64,000 bases of DNA from assembly GCF_010672525.1 (NCBI RefSeq), contig NZ_JAAHGH010000005.1, forward strand, positions 1-64,000. Direction: 5' to 3'. Below, in pieces: positions 49,187 through 58,170 of the stretch. The stretch comes from Okeania sp. SIO2B3. GTDB lineage: Bacteria > Cyanobacteriota > Cyanobacteriia > Cyanobacteriales > Microcoleaceae. The notes under the pieces were generated by a model. It ran no database searches and was not told the origin of the DNA. It saw only the letters and a list, made by a program, of their open reading frames with translations. A program made the position numbers and the translations under genes. Each line of letters begins with the position of its first letter. Position 1 is the stretch's first letter.

Positions 49187-49210
49187 GATTTTTTAAATAA
49201 TTATTCTTGA

Positions 49211-49453
49211 TTAGCTATTACTTTTTATCAAAATTGATTCACAGTTTTCAGCAAGATTTGGTTCAGCTTCAATACAACCAATAAAGTCAAGTTGACTAAA
49301 TTTTTCCAGATGGTTTTCAGAAGTATTCAAGAGTTGTTGATAGTAATACTCTAGAGCAGATAGTAAAATTTCATCTGTGCTTTGTTTAGTTTTTTCCTGG
49401 ATAAAGGCAAGTTTTTGCGCCTGTTATGGAGTGATTAGAGTAGCAATTTTCAT
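49211..49453 (-). pseudogene. Antitoxin-like small gene with an in-frame stop
   Basis: From ATG 49453 the minus strand reads MKIATLITP, a TAA, then QAQKLAFIQEKTKQSTDEIL and 50 more residues to TAA at 49211. Apart from the one stop the frame is clean for 81 codons. The short beta-like start and helical STDEILLSALEYYY segment resemble ribbon-helix-helix antitoxins. No toxin is next to it. Confidence 0.45.
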
Positions 49454-49605
49454 TTTTTATTAGAAGGGAGTTATGTGATTTATATTGCCCTTATTAAGGG
49501 TTTAAAGTTGAACATTATGCCAATTTTAGATATTTTCAAATTTCAAATCTTCCTGACTTGAATAACCTATTTTTTTATAATTCTATTATTTTCATAGGTT
49601 CTAAC

Positions 49606-50475
49606 TTATTTGCCCAGTATATCTTGTGCAATCTTAATTGCTGTTTTTGCTCCTTTCTTATTTGCTGCTGCAAAGCAAAGTAAGAATAGAGGACTGTTGC
49701 ATGAGTTGTATAGTAAAAGAGGATTTTCTGTCACACCTTCAAAAATAGTTTTTAGTCTGTCAATGAAGTATTGCCCAATTGATTTGCCATCTACTGTTTT
49801 TTCTGTAAAAGAATAGAATCCAAATAAATTTTGCTCTCCTCTTACTTGGTAAAAAGTCTCATACCAATCTGTTGTTCCAAATATTTCATTTAGTTTATTC
49901 CGATTTACTTCTTCTATATTTCCATCCTTTTTAAGTAATCTATTAACTCCCATAATAGGAAACAAATACCACAAATCAATTGCTTTAGTTTGGGCAATTA
50001 ATTCAACAGTATTCCATTTAACATCCATGCCAAAAGGGTCTAAAAAAAGTACCGCTCTATGGTACTTCCAATCTTTCAAACATAAATCTTTCAAATATTT
50101 ATTGGCTTCTTCATTAACAATAACAATGTCATTATTAAATTCTGGGAAATCTATTCTGAGTTGATTTAGCTCAGAAGCTTTACTTTCATTTTTTTCAATA
50201 AAAATATACTTATTAAACCTTGGTTTTACTTGTAGTGCTATTCGTGCAGAACCATCTAAAAATTTTTGTACTGCTATGTCTGAAAATTCTGGAAACAGTA
50301 ATGTATCTTTATCTTCTGTTTCTTTAATCTCTCGATATCCTGTACCAGCAAAAGCATCTATATAGGCATAGTAAAAATTATATTTATTCATAATCGTAGC
50401 ATAAGCACCTAAATATTTCCGTACTCGATTTAACTTATCTTCTGTCCAATTTCCGCCAAATACTTGCTTTGCCAT
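49606..50475 (-). CDS. tcmP: Three-Cys-motif partner protein TcmP
   Basis: This 289-residue protein begins FGGNWTEDKLNRVRKYLGAY and has YYAYIDAFAGTGYREI, HRAVLFLDPFGMDVKWNTVE and DLWYLFPIMGVNRLL, the features of TcmP. TcmP is found beside three-Cys-motif (Gp37/Gp68, DUF5131) proteins. DAFAGTG and LDPFGM resemble the SAM-binding and catalytic regions of Rossmann-fold methyltransferases, but the activity is unknown as far as I know. It is divergent from the DUF5131 gene across 150 bp, as expected for partners. The C-terminus (IAQDILGK) is shorter than some relatives, so the end may be trimmed. Confidence 0.85.
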   Translation of the reverse strand: MAKQVFGGNWTEDKLNRVRKYLGAYATIMNKYNFYYAYIDAFAGTGYREIKETEDKDTLLFPEFSDIAVQKFLDGSARIALQVKPRFNKYIFIEKNESKASELNQLRIDFPEFNNDIVIVNEEANKYLKDLCLKDWKYHRAVLFLDPFGMDVKWNTVELIAQTKAIDLWYLFPIMGVNRLLKKDGNIEEVNRNKLNEIFGTTDWYETFYQVRGEQNLFGFYSFTEKTVDGKSIGQYFIDRLKTIFEGVTENPLLLYNSCNSPLFLLCFAAANKKGAKTAIKIAQDILGK

Positions 50476-50626
50476 TATTTGTATCCTTTATTAATAATTA
50501 CTTATCAAAATATTATCTTTGAAATTCAAATCAACATACTAATAAATATGCTATATTTATTATATTATTTCCCCATAAAAATCCTAAAAAAAATAATACT
50601 TTTTATCAAAAATCAAGATATCTATA

Positions 50627-52585
50627 ATGTCTATTATTAAAGGCTCAGAAAAAATTGTTAATCCCCTTCAAGAAAGTGCCCTCAAAAAGAAAGGTTTATG
50701 TGATTATGTAATTAATATAGCATCTGGTTGTTTTCATGGATGCACCTTTTGCCTTGCCCCAGAAACCCTGATTCTTTATTCGGATCTTGTCTGGCGAAAA
50801 CTAGAAAACGCCAGGGTAGGAGACGAACTTCTAGGGTTTGATGAAAATGTGACTAGTCATGTTTATCGCTTTTTCCGCAAAACTACTATAGAAGCAATTC
50901 AATGGAGTAAAAAACCAGCATACAAAATTGTGACTGAAGTCGGAGAAGTAATTTCCACAGCAAATCATGGGTGGCTAAATTATCGTGGCAAGTGGTTGCC
51001 TACATCTGAATTAACAAGCTCTTCAGAAAACAGAAAAGATGGGTTTTCTACACTCAAAAGTATTGGACTTGCTAATTATTTTTTACCTTCAACTGATTAT
51101 AAACTTGGCTATATTGTAGGGATGACAGAAGGAGATGGAACCTTGAGATTCAATCCATCTGAGCTTTACAAAGGAGATTACACTCCATACTGGAGAGTTG
51201 CTCTTTGCGATATTGAACCCCTAGAAAGATTAGTTGAATACCTTTTAGAGTTTGAGATATCTGTTGATATTCGCCCTTATTACCAAGGTAATGAGAAACA
51301 TCGAGTCGTTCAAAAAGTAGAAACTCGCTCTCAAAGTCAATGCAGAAAGTTGTTTTTTTTAATAAATAAACTCTTGGATACTACTGAGTATCACAGAGGT
51401 TTTGTAGCAGGTTTTTTTGATGCGGAAGGTTCCTTTAATGGTTCCCTTCGATTTTCTCAAAAAACACTACCTGTACTCCACCAAGTGCAAAAATATGCTG
51501 AGTCTTTTGGCTTTACATTCAAGATAGAAAAATACAAAAATAGCTGTTTTAATCTTCGACTCATTGGCGGTTTTACAGAGGTGATTAGATTTTTTTCGAT
51601 TTTTTGTCCAGCGATAATCAGAAAATCAGATAAAATAATCGGAGGAGCTTTAAAAGGTATGAAATCTGCCAAAGTTATCGACAAAATTCCTCTTGGTATA
51701 GTTGATGTTATAGATATCCAAACTTCAACCCATACATTTTTCGCTAACGGACTAGCTACCCATAACTGTTATGTACCTTCTACTCCAGCAATTAGAACAA
51801 AGCAAAAGGAATTACAAGAAAAGGGTATTAGTAATCCTCAGATGGATTGGGGAAAATATTTATTAGTTCGAGAAAATATACCTCAGCAATTAGAAGAAAA
51901 ATTAAATCGTAAGAAAAAATGGCGCGAAACACCAGAAGGTAAAGGAGTCGTTTTATTATGTTCTGGAACCGACCCATATCAAAATTATCAAACAGCAAAA
52001 ATTACTCGTCAAACTGTCGAAATATTATCTAAAAATGAGAAAAGAGTAAGAATTTTAACTCGTAGTCCTTTATGGATAAATGATTTAGATATTCTTAATA
52101 AACCTAATATTACAGTTGGTATGAGTTTACCATTTTTAAATGATGAACTTAGTCTCAAAATTGAACCACAAGCACCCCCGCCTTCTAAACGTTATGAAGC
52201 TCTACAAAAAGGTCATCAAGTAGGATGTAGATTGTATGTAGCTATGGCTCCCACTCCTCCTATAATGACATTAGATGATTTTAAAATAAATTTAGAACAA
52301 ATTATGAAAATTGAGCCAGAAGTAATATTTTGGGAACCTATTAATGCTCGTGGAAGTAATGGTAAACGTATGATAGCGGCAGGTTTAGAATTTGCTCGTT
52401 CAATTATGACTAAAAAATCGTGGGCAGAAAATTTTATTAAGCAGTGGGAAGAGATGGAAGAAGCAGCTAAAAGTATTGGATGTTTAGATAAGCTTCATAT
52501 TTGGCCAGACCCAGAATTAAAAGGTTATGTAGCAGCAGAAAAATTAAATCATTGGTTATATATGCCGACCATAGAAAAATGGTAG
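50627..52585 (+). CDS. DUF5131 (phage Gp37/Gp68) radical-SAM-like protein containing an intein
   Basis: The 652-residue precursor has extein parts 1-41 and 381-652 (313 residues after splicing). The N-terminal part ends ASGCFHGCTF. Joined to the C-terminal CYVPSTPAIR it makes C-x3-C-x2-C, the radical-SAM-type iron-sulfur motif of the three-Cys-motif family. Later parts include VVLLCSGTDPYQNYQTAKIT, RVRILTRSPLWINDLDIL and VIFWEPINARGSNGKRM, all normal for DUF5131. The ATG at 50627 is natural. It stands head to head with tcmP. Such pairs are often carried by phages and mobile DNA. Reaction and substrate are unknown. Confidence 0.88.
   Translation: MSIIKGSEKIVNPLQESALKKKGLCDYVINIASGCFHGCTFCLAPETLILYSDLVWRKLENARVGDELLGFDENVTSHVYRFFRKTTIEAIQWSKKPAYKIVTEVGEVISTANHGWLNYRGKWLPTSELTSSSENRKDGFSTLKSIGLANYFLPSTDYKLGYIVGMTEGDGTLRFNPSELYKGDYTPYWRVALCDIEPLERLVEYLLEFEISVDIRPYYQGNEKHRVVQKVETRSQSQCRKLFFLINKLLDTTEYHRGFVAGFFDAEGSFNGSLRFSQKTLPVLHQVQKYAESFGFTFKIEKYKNSCFNLRLIGGFTEVIRFFSIFCPAIIRKSDKIIGGALKGMKSAKVIDKIPLGIVDVIDIQTSTHTFFANGLATHNCYVPSTPAIRTKQKELQEKGISNPQMDWGKYLLVRENIPQQLEEKLNRKKKWRETPEGKGVVLLCSGTDPYQNYQTAKITRQTVEILSKNEKRVRILTRSPLWINDLDILNKPNITVGMSLPFLNDELSLKIEPQAPPPSKRYEALQKGHQVGCRLYVAMAPTPPIMTLDDFKINLEQIMKIEPEVIFWEPINARGSNGKRMIAAGLEFARSIMTKKSWAENFIKQWEEMEEAAKSIGCLDKLHIWPDPELKGYVAAEKLNHWLYMPTIEKW
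50750..51766 (+). mobile_element. LAGLIDADG intein within the cluster motif
   Basis: The 339-residue insert starts with Cys (CLAPETLILYSDLVWRKLEN, block A) and has block B as STANHGWLNYRGKWL (TxxH). The homing endonuclease motifs are LGYIVGMTEGDGTLRF and HRGFVAGFFDAEGSFNG, both with the acidic residue kept. It ends with blocks F/G, VIDIQTSTHTFFANGLATHN, followed by +1 Cys. All splicing residues (Cys1, block-B His, penultimate His, final Asn, +1 Cys) are present, so it should be active. Codon boundaries are 50750-50752 (Cys1) and 51764-51766 (Asn). Confidence 0.93.
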
Positions 52586-55869: not shown

Positions 55870-58170
55870 TTGACATTAACACGTAATCCAAATTTAGATC
55901 TAACAACACTCTTATCACTCGACCAGAAAGAGGAGAAAAACCCCGTAGATCCCCTGATTGGGCAGCGTCCAGATTGGTGGTGGACTGGGCTGCGACCTAC
56001 AGAAGTCCTGTATGCAATGCCAATTCCAAATCTAGCCACCTGCACGCGCCGTGAGGTTCTCGACTACTTCGATAACGGTTGGCTGATGACCGAAGTTTTG
56101 TTGTCAGCGCTACAGGGAGAACAGGCATTCCTCGACCCACCCTACCACCAACTTCGTCATCCTCTCATCTTCTATCTATGCCATCCTGCAGTACTCTACA
56201 TCAATAAGCTCCGGCTAGCTGGACTTATCGATGAGTCAATTAATCCATACTTCGAGCAATTGTTTGAAACTGGCGTTGACGAGATGTCCTGGGACGATAT
56301 ATCCAAGAATGAAATGGATTGGCCGTCAGTCCGTGAAGTCGTCGATTACAGACGCAGCACCTACAAGATTGTCCGAGAATTGATTGAAACCCTACCTGCC
56401 TTGGAAGACGGTCATCCACCGATCACGATGGATAATCCCACATGGGCACTATTCTTAGGATTTGAACACGAACGCATACACATCGAAACCTCCAGTGTCC
56501 TGTTGCGAGAGTTACCCCTGTCGGTTTTGCGTCAGCCTGAAGCATGGCAAAATCTGCACCCTTCCGCATTTGCAGAGAGTCAGACCGTTGAGAACGAGTT
56601 AATCGCCGTTTCCAGCAAGACTGTCACCTTGGGTAAGCCTTGGGAAGAACCCTGCTTTGGTTGGGACAACGAGTATGGTTCACGGCAGATAAGGGTTCGG
56701 AGTTTTCAAGCCAGTCAACACTTAGTCACAAATCGTGAATTTTACGAGTTTGTTGTTGCAGGCGGATACCAGGAACCGAAATATTGGACAGAAGAAGGTT
56801 GGACTTGGAAGCAAAATCGCAATACTAAATGGCCGACTTTCTGGGTGGCTGATGGACCAGCAGGACTGCATCAGTATCAACTGCGGACGATATTTGAGGT
56901 GGTAGAGATGCCTTGGTCTTGGCCTGCCGCTGTCAACTGGTATGAGGCGAAAGCCTACTGTGCCTGGAAGACCGAGCAGGATAATAGCCCCGTCCCTTAC
57001 AGACTCATAACCGAAGCCGAACATCATTGCTTGCGCGGGGGCAACCAGCCAGTTAATTTGAATTTAACTTGGGGTTCGGAAATCCCAGTGAATGCTTTAG
57101 CGCCTAACAAAACTGGATTTTACGATGTCTTCGGCAATGTTTGGCAGTGGTGTGAGGATGATTTCAATCCCTTGGAAGGGTTCCGCGTCCATCGGCTCTA
57201 TGATGACTTTAGTACCCCTTGCTTCGACGGTGAACATAAGATGATTCTCGGCGGTTCTTTCATAAGTACTGGTGATGAAGCGACCCAGTGGGCAAGGTTT
57301 CACTTTCGACCTCACTTCTTCCAGCACGCAGGATTCAGGCTAGTTCGAGCCGATGATGGCGACCCAACCTGCGATGCAGTACTAATTCGTCACAAAAGCA
57401 ATTGGGTTAAAGCTTATGAAGGTGAGAAAATTCTGGCAGAAAACCTGATGCTGCATTATGAGTCGGCTGATGAAGCAATGCCCTACAACTTCGGCCCCAA
57501 GGATGCCGTGGGATTTCCTCAAAGCATTGCCAAATTAACCTTGGAGACAGCCGATCACCTGGGAATAAAGAAGGATCGAGCAATAGATGTTGGCTGCTCC
57601 GTTGGCGGCTCAACCTTCGAGCTAGCCAGGGGATTCCAGTCAGTGTTAGGAATCGACCTCAGTGCTACCTTTATTGATGCTGCCAAGACCCTACATCGCG
57701 AAGGCAGACTAGCTTATAGTCGCCCCGATGAAGGGGAAAACACGAGCCAAGCGGAAGTTTGCTTGCCAGAAGACCCGGATCGTAGTCGGGTGACCTTCCG
57801 CCGTGGGGATGCTTGTGCCTTGCCCCCTGAACTGGTTGGGTTTGATGTGGTATTGGCTGCTAATCTTATTTGCCGTCTACCCAGTCCTAGAGCATTTCTT
57901 GGTCGGTTGTGCGGTGCGCGTGGGCTAGTACGACCGGGTGGATTACTGGTGCTAGCAACACCGTTTACTTGGGATGAGCGTTTCACACCACGGGATGCTT
58001 GGTTGGGTGGCCATGATGGCGAGGATTCCTTTACTGTATTGCAAGCAGAACTAAAGGGAGATTTTGAATTGCTCGAAACACAGGATATGCCCTTCCTAAT
58101 TCGGGAACACGCTCGTAAGTTCCAATATGTGGTTACTTTGGTCAGTTTGTGGAAACGGTGTAGGAACTAA
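55870..58170 (+). CDS. ovoA: 5-histidylcysteine sulfoxide synthase / methyltransferase (ovothiol synthesis)
   Basis: The 766-residue protein has the three-domain OvoA layout. A DinB-like domain (about residues 50-210) carries the iron-binding GFEHERIHIETS (H200, H204). An FGE-sulfatase-like domain (about 235-500) has GGYQEPKYWTEEGW and FGNVWQWCEDDFNPLEGF. A methyltransferase (about 555-766) has AIDVGCSVGGSTFELARG. It joins cysteine to histidine C5 and would methylate the imidazole of 5-thiohistidine. The TTG start at 55870 follows AAAGGAT by about ten bases. The gene is visibly more GC-rich than its neighbours, suggesting transfer. The C-S lyase gene (ovoB) is not in the window. Confidence 0.9.
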   Translation: MTLTRNPNLDLTTLLSLDQKEEKNPVDPLIGQRPDWWWTGLRPTEVLYAMPIPNLATCTRREVLDYFDNGWLMTEVLLSALQGEQAFLDPPYHQLRHPLIFYLCHPAVLYINKLRLAGLIDESINPYFEQLFETGVDEMSWDDISKNEMDWPSVREVVDYRRSTYKIVRELIETLPALEDGHPPITMDNPTWALFLGFEHERIHIETSSVLLRELPLSVLRQPEAWQNLHPSAFAESQTVENELIAVSSKTVTLGKPWEEPCFGWDNEYGSRQIRVRSFQASQHLVTNREFYEFVVAGGYQEPKYWTEEGWTWKQNRNTKWPTFWVADGPAGLHQYQLRTIFEVVEMPWSWPAAVNWYEAKAYCAWKTEQDNSPVPYRLITEAEHHCLRGGNQPVNLNLTWGSEIPVNALAPNKTGFYDVFGNVWQWCEDDFNPLEGFRVHRLYDDFSTPCFDGEHKMILGGSFISTGDEATQWARFHFRPHFFQHAGFRLVRADDGDPTCDAVLIRHKSNWVKAYEGEKILAENLMLHYESADEAMPYNFGPKDAVGFPQSIAKLTLETADHLGIKKDRAIDVGCSVGGSTFELARGFQSVLGIDLSATFIDAAKTLHREGRLAYSRPDEGENTSQAEVCLPEDPDRSRVTFRRGDACALPPELVGFDVVLAANLICRLPSPRAFLGRLCGARGLVRPGGLLVLATPFTWDERFTPRDAWLGGHDGEDSFTVLQAELKGDFELLETQDMPFLIREHARKFQYVVTLVSLWKRCRN

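Follow-up and report, generated by a model that had tools for sequence, protein, structure and literature searches.

The window, which is the whole stretch of 64,000 nucleotides of Okeania sp. SIO2B3 DNA analyzed here (contig NZ_JAAHGH010000005.1), carries a gene for a radical-SAM three-Cys protein that is interrupted by an intein, and a divergent gene for its TcmP partner. The features are as follows, each with the evidence for it where several kinds were available.

49606..50475, minus strand: TcmP, 289 aa, divergent partner gene, PADLOC PDC-M41A (TIGR04474, PADLOC)
50627-52585, plus strand: intein-bearing host open reading frame (ORF), 652 aa, open throughout
50627..50749, plus strand: N-extein, residues 1-41, which holds C35 and C39, C39 being position -3 to the intein
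50750..51766, plus strand: intein, residues 42-380, 339 aa, from Cys1 to Asn339 (empty-site orthologues, LAGLIDADG_3, aligned relatives, omega)
51107..51139, plus strand: first LAGLIDADG-type motif GYIVGMTEGDG, residues 161-171 (sequence and alignment)
51398..51430, plus strand: second LAGLIDADG-type motif GFVAGFFDAEG, residues 258-268 (LAGLIDADG_3, alignment)
51761..51769, plus strand: C-terminal splice junction His379-Asn380/Cys381 (sequence; THN/C in relatives)
51767..52585, plus strand: C-extein of the radical-SAM three-Cys protein, 272 aa plus stop

The intein at 50750..51766, with its length of 339 residues, had been proposed in an earlier note on this DNA, and its coordinates match exactly, with empty-site orthologues and LAGLIDADG_3 in agreement. 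From the sequence, Cys1, the block B motif TANH, the terminal His-Asn and Cys381 at position +1 can be read, and in the two LAGLIDADG-type motifs the acidic residues are kept in sequence and alignment. The note was likewise right in placing the insertion directly before the third Cys of C-x3-C-x2-C, which as Cys381 is the predicted +1 nucleophile, in its list of splicing residues and of both acidic residues, and in predicting a spliced product of 41 + 272 = 313 residues. Pfam LAGLIDADG_3 matches residues 254-308 of the window protein with 38.8 bits, above its cut-off, and NCBIfam intein_Cterm scores 15.5 bits for the whole protein (cut-off 15.6) and 17.6 bits in a fragment. The features of a class 1 LAGLIDADG intein (position 1, TxxH, His-Asn, +1 residue, two motifs, interrupted host) are all found in the window intein. 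Splicing residues are retained, and the THN/C junction is common, in the four full cyanobacterial inteins, in a natural mini-intein and in two inteins of DUF5131 proteins. A sequence search of the PDB with the intein profile gave a best E of 0.018.

That the intein is an insertion is proven by the clean empty site of relatives: intein-free orthologues, such as L035 from Okeania hirsuta (C-extein 94% identical) and L040 from Candidatus Paraprochloron terpiosi LD05, are gap-free at the site and read GCxHGCxF/CYV. The C-extein found matches at E<=0.001 in 44 of 388 genomes of the class, 24 of which hold a full-length C-extein with at least 57% identity; one of these, the window, has the intein and 23 are intein-free at the exact site. 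An alignment in which DUF5131 proteins normally carry the 339-residue segment was named in the earlier note as what would speak against an intein, and among the host orthologues the opposite was observed, 23 of 24 being continuous at the site. Among named genomes, 23 loci were identified, with full inteins at three (L034 in Okeania sp. SIO2F4, L036 in Microcoleaceae MO_207.B10 and L038 in Lyngbya aestuarii BL J), a 156-residue mini-intein without endonuclease at one (L056 in Ca. P. terpiosi SP5CPC1), 18 empty sites including L035 and L040, and one partial locus (L055). In a survey of 61 genomes of the family, four had the full intein allele and five a full-length C-extein without intein, and in the others there were only fragments or distant relatives, or no match; a genome of the window's own genus (L082) has an empty C-extein identical to that of O. 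hirsuta. Searches for copies of the intein in 375 other genomes of the class returned 23 weak matches, the best scoring 31 bits where the window's copy scores 778, and no close relative of the window intein or C-extein was confirmed in IMG/VR. Two of these alleles are damaged: the intein-free O. hirsuta allele (L035, 4001-4816) has a nonsense codon late in its C-extein, and the host gene around the natural mini-intein (L056, 2320-2787; 156 aa, endonuclease gone) has a frame-breaking 100-bp deletion.

The earlier note had assigned the host to DUF5131, and this assignment was rejected. PF07505 (DUF5131) gave no match at E<=0.01 in the window protein, L038 or L041, whereas PF04055 Radical_SAM matched the window protein with 30.7 bits (cut-off 29.5) and the orthologues L038 and L041 with 37.1 and 41.0 bits. 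By its PF04055 score above the cut-off and its C-x3-C-x2-C motif, which is invariant in 17 aligned sequences, 13 of them intein-free, the host is classified as a radical-SAM protein. Within the motif (CFHGC), the window has Phe36 (50732-50734) at a position occupied by Leu in the 16 other aligned sequences. The best NCBIfam models on the host, all below their own cut-offs, are also radical-SAM families: Rv2578c in its intein-containing and intein-free versions, PA0069 and mobile pair B. For L041, an orthologue without intein, the structure model (mean pLDDT 75.4, pTM 0.80) has a radical-SAM fold, with low confidence at residues 33-38 and 43-50 flanking the cysteines. When this model was ranked structurally by Z, spore photoproduct lyase came first (14.8; 251 residues, rmsd 3.7), tied with PFL activating enzyme (14.0) and SuiB (13.9). 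In Foldseek, SuiB and NifB lead by E-value and spore photoproduct lyase has the top TM-score (0.53) among 15 matches with E up to 0.001; PF20903, of the spore photoproduct lyase family, matches L041 weakly with 15.3 bits (cut-off 27). Such likeness of a predicted fold to radical-SAM enzymes is no demonstration of function. With the host profile, the best E in a PDB sequence search was 0.06. The sole PF07505 match of the window genome lies on another contig (L001, 1426-1863) in an intein-free ORF of 145 aa; it spans positions 1-125 of the 243 in the profile with C-x6-C-x2-C intact, the length of its open frame is 359 aa in the search output and 147 aa by direct reading, and the ORF is probably a fragment.

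TcmP stands for 'three-Cys-motif partner', and that of the window scores 210 bits with TIGR04474 (cut-off 53) and matches PDC-M41A at 4.4e-116. With our own TcmP profiles, a TcmP frame was detected directly upstream (gap of 0-461 bp, or overlap) in 31 of 41 distinct orthologues, this set comprising loci with both extein parts and a long C-extein, with identical C-exteins merged and with L056 (broken host) and fragments left out. As 5 and 8 of the loci later counted had gone into building the two profiles, 13 of the 31 match by construction and the independent count is 18 of 28. TIGR04474 was passed by all ten tested upstream ORFs of relatives (10 of 13; L035, tested by PADLOC, L056 and L061 were left out), in the case of L042 marginally (53.3 bits against 53), and L042 had been missed by our own profiles yet lies above this cut-off. 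With PADLOC, the TcmP neighbours of relatives matched PDC-M30A in 8 of 8 tested, and no PADLOC model matched the cyanobacterial radical-SAM proteins of the window, L038 and L041. With TcmP upstream in 31 of 41 loci and TIGR04474 matches in 10 of 10, this radical-SAM protein regularly serves as the three-Cys member of a pair with TcmP, a role that a DUF5131 protein fills elsewhere (L057).

The order hydrolase - TcmP - radical SAM - SBBP protein is common to the window (49199-50626) and L036 (1248-2860), and at this one locus the TcmP gene has been swapped, being divergent and of the PDC-M41A type in the window and co-directional and of the PDC-M30A type in L036; DNA homology between the two ends just past the hydrolase and restarts at the start codon of the radical-SAM gene. 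The match of the L035 TcmP neighbour to the TcmP of L036 begins only at residue 112, and at L034 (1843-2710) the TcmP beside the intein-bearing radical-SAM gene is broken into two frames. Another TcmP-radical-SAM pair (L060, 2913-8939) belongs to a Nostoc plasmid classed as conjugative; BREX genes (BrxA family, brxL, pglZ) are nearby, separated from it by one hypothetical gene. Further downstream, the window contains a 766-aa ORF (55870-58170) that presumably consists of an iron-dependent sulfoxide-synthase domain and a methyltransferase, as in ovothiol synthesis.

The intein and its host were compared codon by codon among alleles. Between the window and L056, dS is about 2.3 for the host (178 codons, saturated) and 0.43 for the intein, and the L056 host differs from that of intein-free L040 by a dS of 0.11. 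An intein dS far under that of the host, in a host close to an empty one, means that the intein moved between lineages, and comparison of these alleles establishes lateral movement for this one host pair. Between the window and L034, dS is 0.178 for the host, 0.072 for the intein and 0.034 for the endonuclease part. No such contrast was found between the window and L036 (intein 0.177, host 0.213) or between the window and L038, where both values are saturated. Omega is 0.07-0.31 in six pairs of full cyanobacterial inteins, indicating purifying selection at the codon level. As the second motif of L034 is FFDAES and omega of the endonuclease part is 0.48 between the window and L034, some copies may be inactive.

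Co-conversion of the flanks is doubtful on the available alignments. Against the empty L035, 12 of the 41 differences of the window fall no more than 60 bp from the site (P 0.003), and the positions -48, -7, -4, +15, +28 and +30 separate the broken, empty L035 from all three intein-bearing alleles. Clustering of L035 differences near the site is absent for L034 (8 of 54, P 0.38) and L036 (9 of 60, P 0.36), the three pairs of intein-bearing alleles show no excess of differences there, and mutation in L035 would also explain the separating sites.

Patchy presence, the dS contrast and the motifs fit a homing element. Very probably, a class 1 self-splicing LAGLIDADG homing intein has invaded the third motif-Cys codon of a TcmP-paired radical-SAM protein, and the precursor self-splices to the 313-residue enzyme. 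In this mechanism, the precursor would splice by the standard Cys1/Asn/Cys+1 route, Cys381 would become the third ligand of a [4Fe-4S] cluster in the spliced host, and the endonuclease would cut empty alleles and copy the intein into them, for which the invariant Gly-Cys-x-Phe-Cys-Tyr stretch would offer a stable target. The best reading of the intein is that of a parasite on an invariant cluster codon. It could instead be a non-functional remnant that has lost splicing and left its host inactive, and sister alleles do decay, as seen from the nonsense codon of L035, the 100-bp host deletion of L056 and the TcmP in two frames at L034. The window ORF, however, is open throughout with its splicing residues retained, and host omega against the window is 0.15 for L034, 0.15 for L036 and 0.17 for L035, so that a remnant is extremely unlikely.

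Whether splicing controls the enzyme is a separate matter from homing. The earlier note held that the cluster site cannot form without splicing; in the precursor, however, the intein Cys1 (C42) occupies the position of the third Cys and restores C-x3-C-x2-C (C35-x3-C39-x2-C42), and the sequence therefore does not imply a blocked cluster. The precursor is probably inactive, as most of the barrel lies C-terminal of the intein; in its structure model (mean pLDDT 48.5) the intein and the cysteine loop are uninterpretable. The view in the note that splicing acts as an on-switch found no sign of control in its favor. Scattered presence and horizontal movement are in keeping with a selfish homing element, and control through splicing is possible.

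Two forms of such control were considered. In the window, C39-T-F-C42 puts a Cys at -3 to Cys1, which is the criterion of the MoaA-type redox-trapped intein. MoaA is a radical-SAM enzyme. The C39-T-F-C42 spacing equals that of the native Cys-3/Cys1 disulfide of the P. abyssi MoaA intein, which can control activity according to the available part of PMC3922620 and which stops splicing under oxidizing conditions according to that of PMC10663303. By analogy, an oxidized C39/Cys1 disulfide might hold the oxygen-sensitive radical-SAM enzyme as an inactive precursor until reduction frees Cys1 for splicing to the enzyme, and a Cys at -3 is also present in the DUF5131 inteins (CDN/C in L057, CRF/C in L109). 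However, C39 is invariant without intein too, so the host motif accounts for it and it gives no sign that control was selected for; no signs of domestication were found in the alleles compared, the sole endonuclease-free allele (L056) sitting in a host gene that has lost 100 bp. Evidence for physiologically relevant conditional splicing was lacking as of the 2014 review in its accessible portion (PMC4031507), and the case for it is argued in later literature, likewise available in part (PMC10663303, PMC6195587). Redox-gated splicing of this kind is thus a tentative and rather doubtful reading, and it is compatible with the homing-intein explanation, as both could hold. Alternatively, C35, C39 and C42 might bind an Fe-S cluster or metal that ties up the nucleophile, the third ligand passing to Cys381 upon splicing. 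The spacing intact in the precursor, with Cys1 replacing the third Cys, is consistent with this, but the same spacing is expected of any Cys1 intein inserted before a Cys, the loop may be misplaced with most of the radical-SAM barrel following the intein, and no such case was found in the available parts of PMC10663303, PMC4031507, PMC5874633, PMC6195587, PMC3922620 and PMC9957025. Gating by a cluster or metal is very unlikely.

Although the DUF5131 assignment fails for the window protein, which is radical SAM, a third-Cys intein in DUF5131 proteins does hold elsewhere, and the inteins of two genuine members may be a new aspect. On a Streptomyces plasmid (NZ_CP129127.1; L057, 2962-4713), a 584-aa DUF5131 ORF (PF07505, 321 bits) that adjoins TcmP has an intein at the third Cys. 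The incomplete gene table of the plasmid lists the adjoining TcmP and has no gene over this ORF. Of 381 plasmid records matching the ORF, only its own covers at least 80% of the query, from which intein-free relatives appear to be the rule. On a 112-kb viral contig of IMG/VR (L109), a DUF5131 protein (PF07505, 236 bits) has an intein exactly at the third Cys, and no match to TcmP was obtained in its record. The two inteins share 58% identity, and their identity to the window intein is 34-35% over the full length. A tree of 17 inteins, which contains a very long helicase branch, groups them with the four full cyanobacterial inteins at a moderate support of 81/80 that was not starred by the program. 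This tree includes 11 of 16 IMG/VR rows (L113, L114, L115, L117, L122 and the mini-intein were left out), and its host labels beyond L057, L109, L110 and L058 come from reading of the sequences. Provided that this grouping is right, a single intein lineage occupies the third motif Cys of both host families.

Other hosts were encountered in the same searches. Virus Rctr197k (L058, 1870-5139) was rejected as a same-site case; its host part matches SNF2 weakly (21.7 bits, cut-off 24.9), and its label 'radical SAM protein-like' therefore probably derives from intein similarity. Among the best 20 of the 145 matches of that search, 18 are phage proteins annotated as terminases, and these were discarded as other hosts. 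A viral 1294-aa ORF with uracil-DNA-glycosylase and family A polymerase matches (L110, 3605-7486) carries a related intein immediately ahead of its glycosylase-matching part.

A broader idea, which we consider quite unlikely, is that one intein lineage has specialized on the third motif Cys across radical-SAM proteins of cyanobacteria and the DUF5131 proteins encoded by a viral contig and a Streptomyces plasmid, in most cases next to TcmP, with splicing gated by the redox or cluster state of C35/C39/Cys1. If true, a candidate phage-defence module would have its oxygen-sensitive enzymes completed only in a reducing cell. For the question whether active-site inteins are sensors or parasites, the loci offer a compact natural system: closely related radical-SAM hosts that either carry or lack the intein, a mini-intein of natural origin, and sister inteins at the corresponding Cys of a second family. 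All of these inteins have the Cys-3/Cys1 pair known to form a redox trap. The radical-SAM protein also stands out as a regular partner of TcmP, which is listed by PADLOC in candidate defence systems.

As to known systems, the earlier note had presented the position of the intein as new, which does not stand, as NCBIfam NF038136 (intein-containing Rv2578c family radical SAM protein) covers the aligned place and the MoaA Cys-3/Cys1 disulfide is treated in the accessible part of a review (PMC3922620). Residues 26-118 of the window protein align with positions 60-150 of NF038136, nearly gap-free over the N-junction, and a fragment around the C-junction aligns with positions 281-391. The Rv2578c inteins thus lie at, or very near, the window site, and as far as profile coordinates tell the insertion site is already catalogued. 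Literature searches found none joining an intein with Rv2578c and none combining any two of DUF5131, the three-Cys motif, phage Gp37 and radical SAM, and no paper on such an intein was among the matches listed. In both NF038136 and the window, a radical-SAM host carries its intein at the aligned position, but the window protein scores 139.2 bits, far under the curated cut-off of 700, and the cyanobacterial host is another family. The likeness to the P. abyssi MoaA intein lies in a radical-SAM host and in a Cys at -3 that is able to pair with Cys1. With the mycobacterial SufB and DnaB inteins, described as oxidative stress sensors in the available part of PMC6195587, a Cys-based redox effect on splicing would be shared, but these have other hosts and other sites, and the effect was measured there whereas the window is known from sequence. 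The inteins of the DUF5131 (phage Gp37/Gp68) proteins L057 and L109 resemble the window intein in third-Cys insertion and in their relatedness, and L057 also in its TcmP neighbour, but their host is PF07505 with the motif C-x6-C-x2-C, and L109 has no TcmP match in its record. Finally, the PADLOC candidate systems PDC-M41 and PDC-M30 share their TcmP with the loci described here, the window TcmP being PDC-M41A and that of relatives matching PDC-M30A, whereas their B component is DUF5131-like, as L057 matches both PDC-M41B and M30B, and its counterpart in cyanobacteria is a radical-SAM protein.
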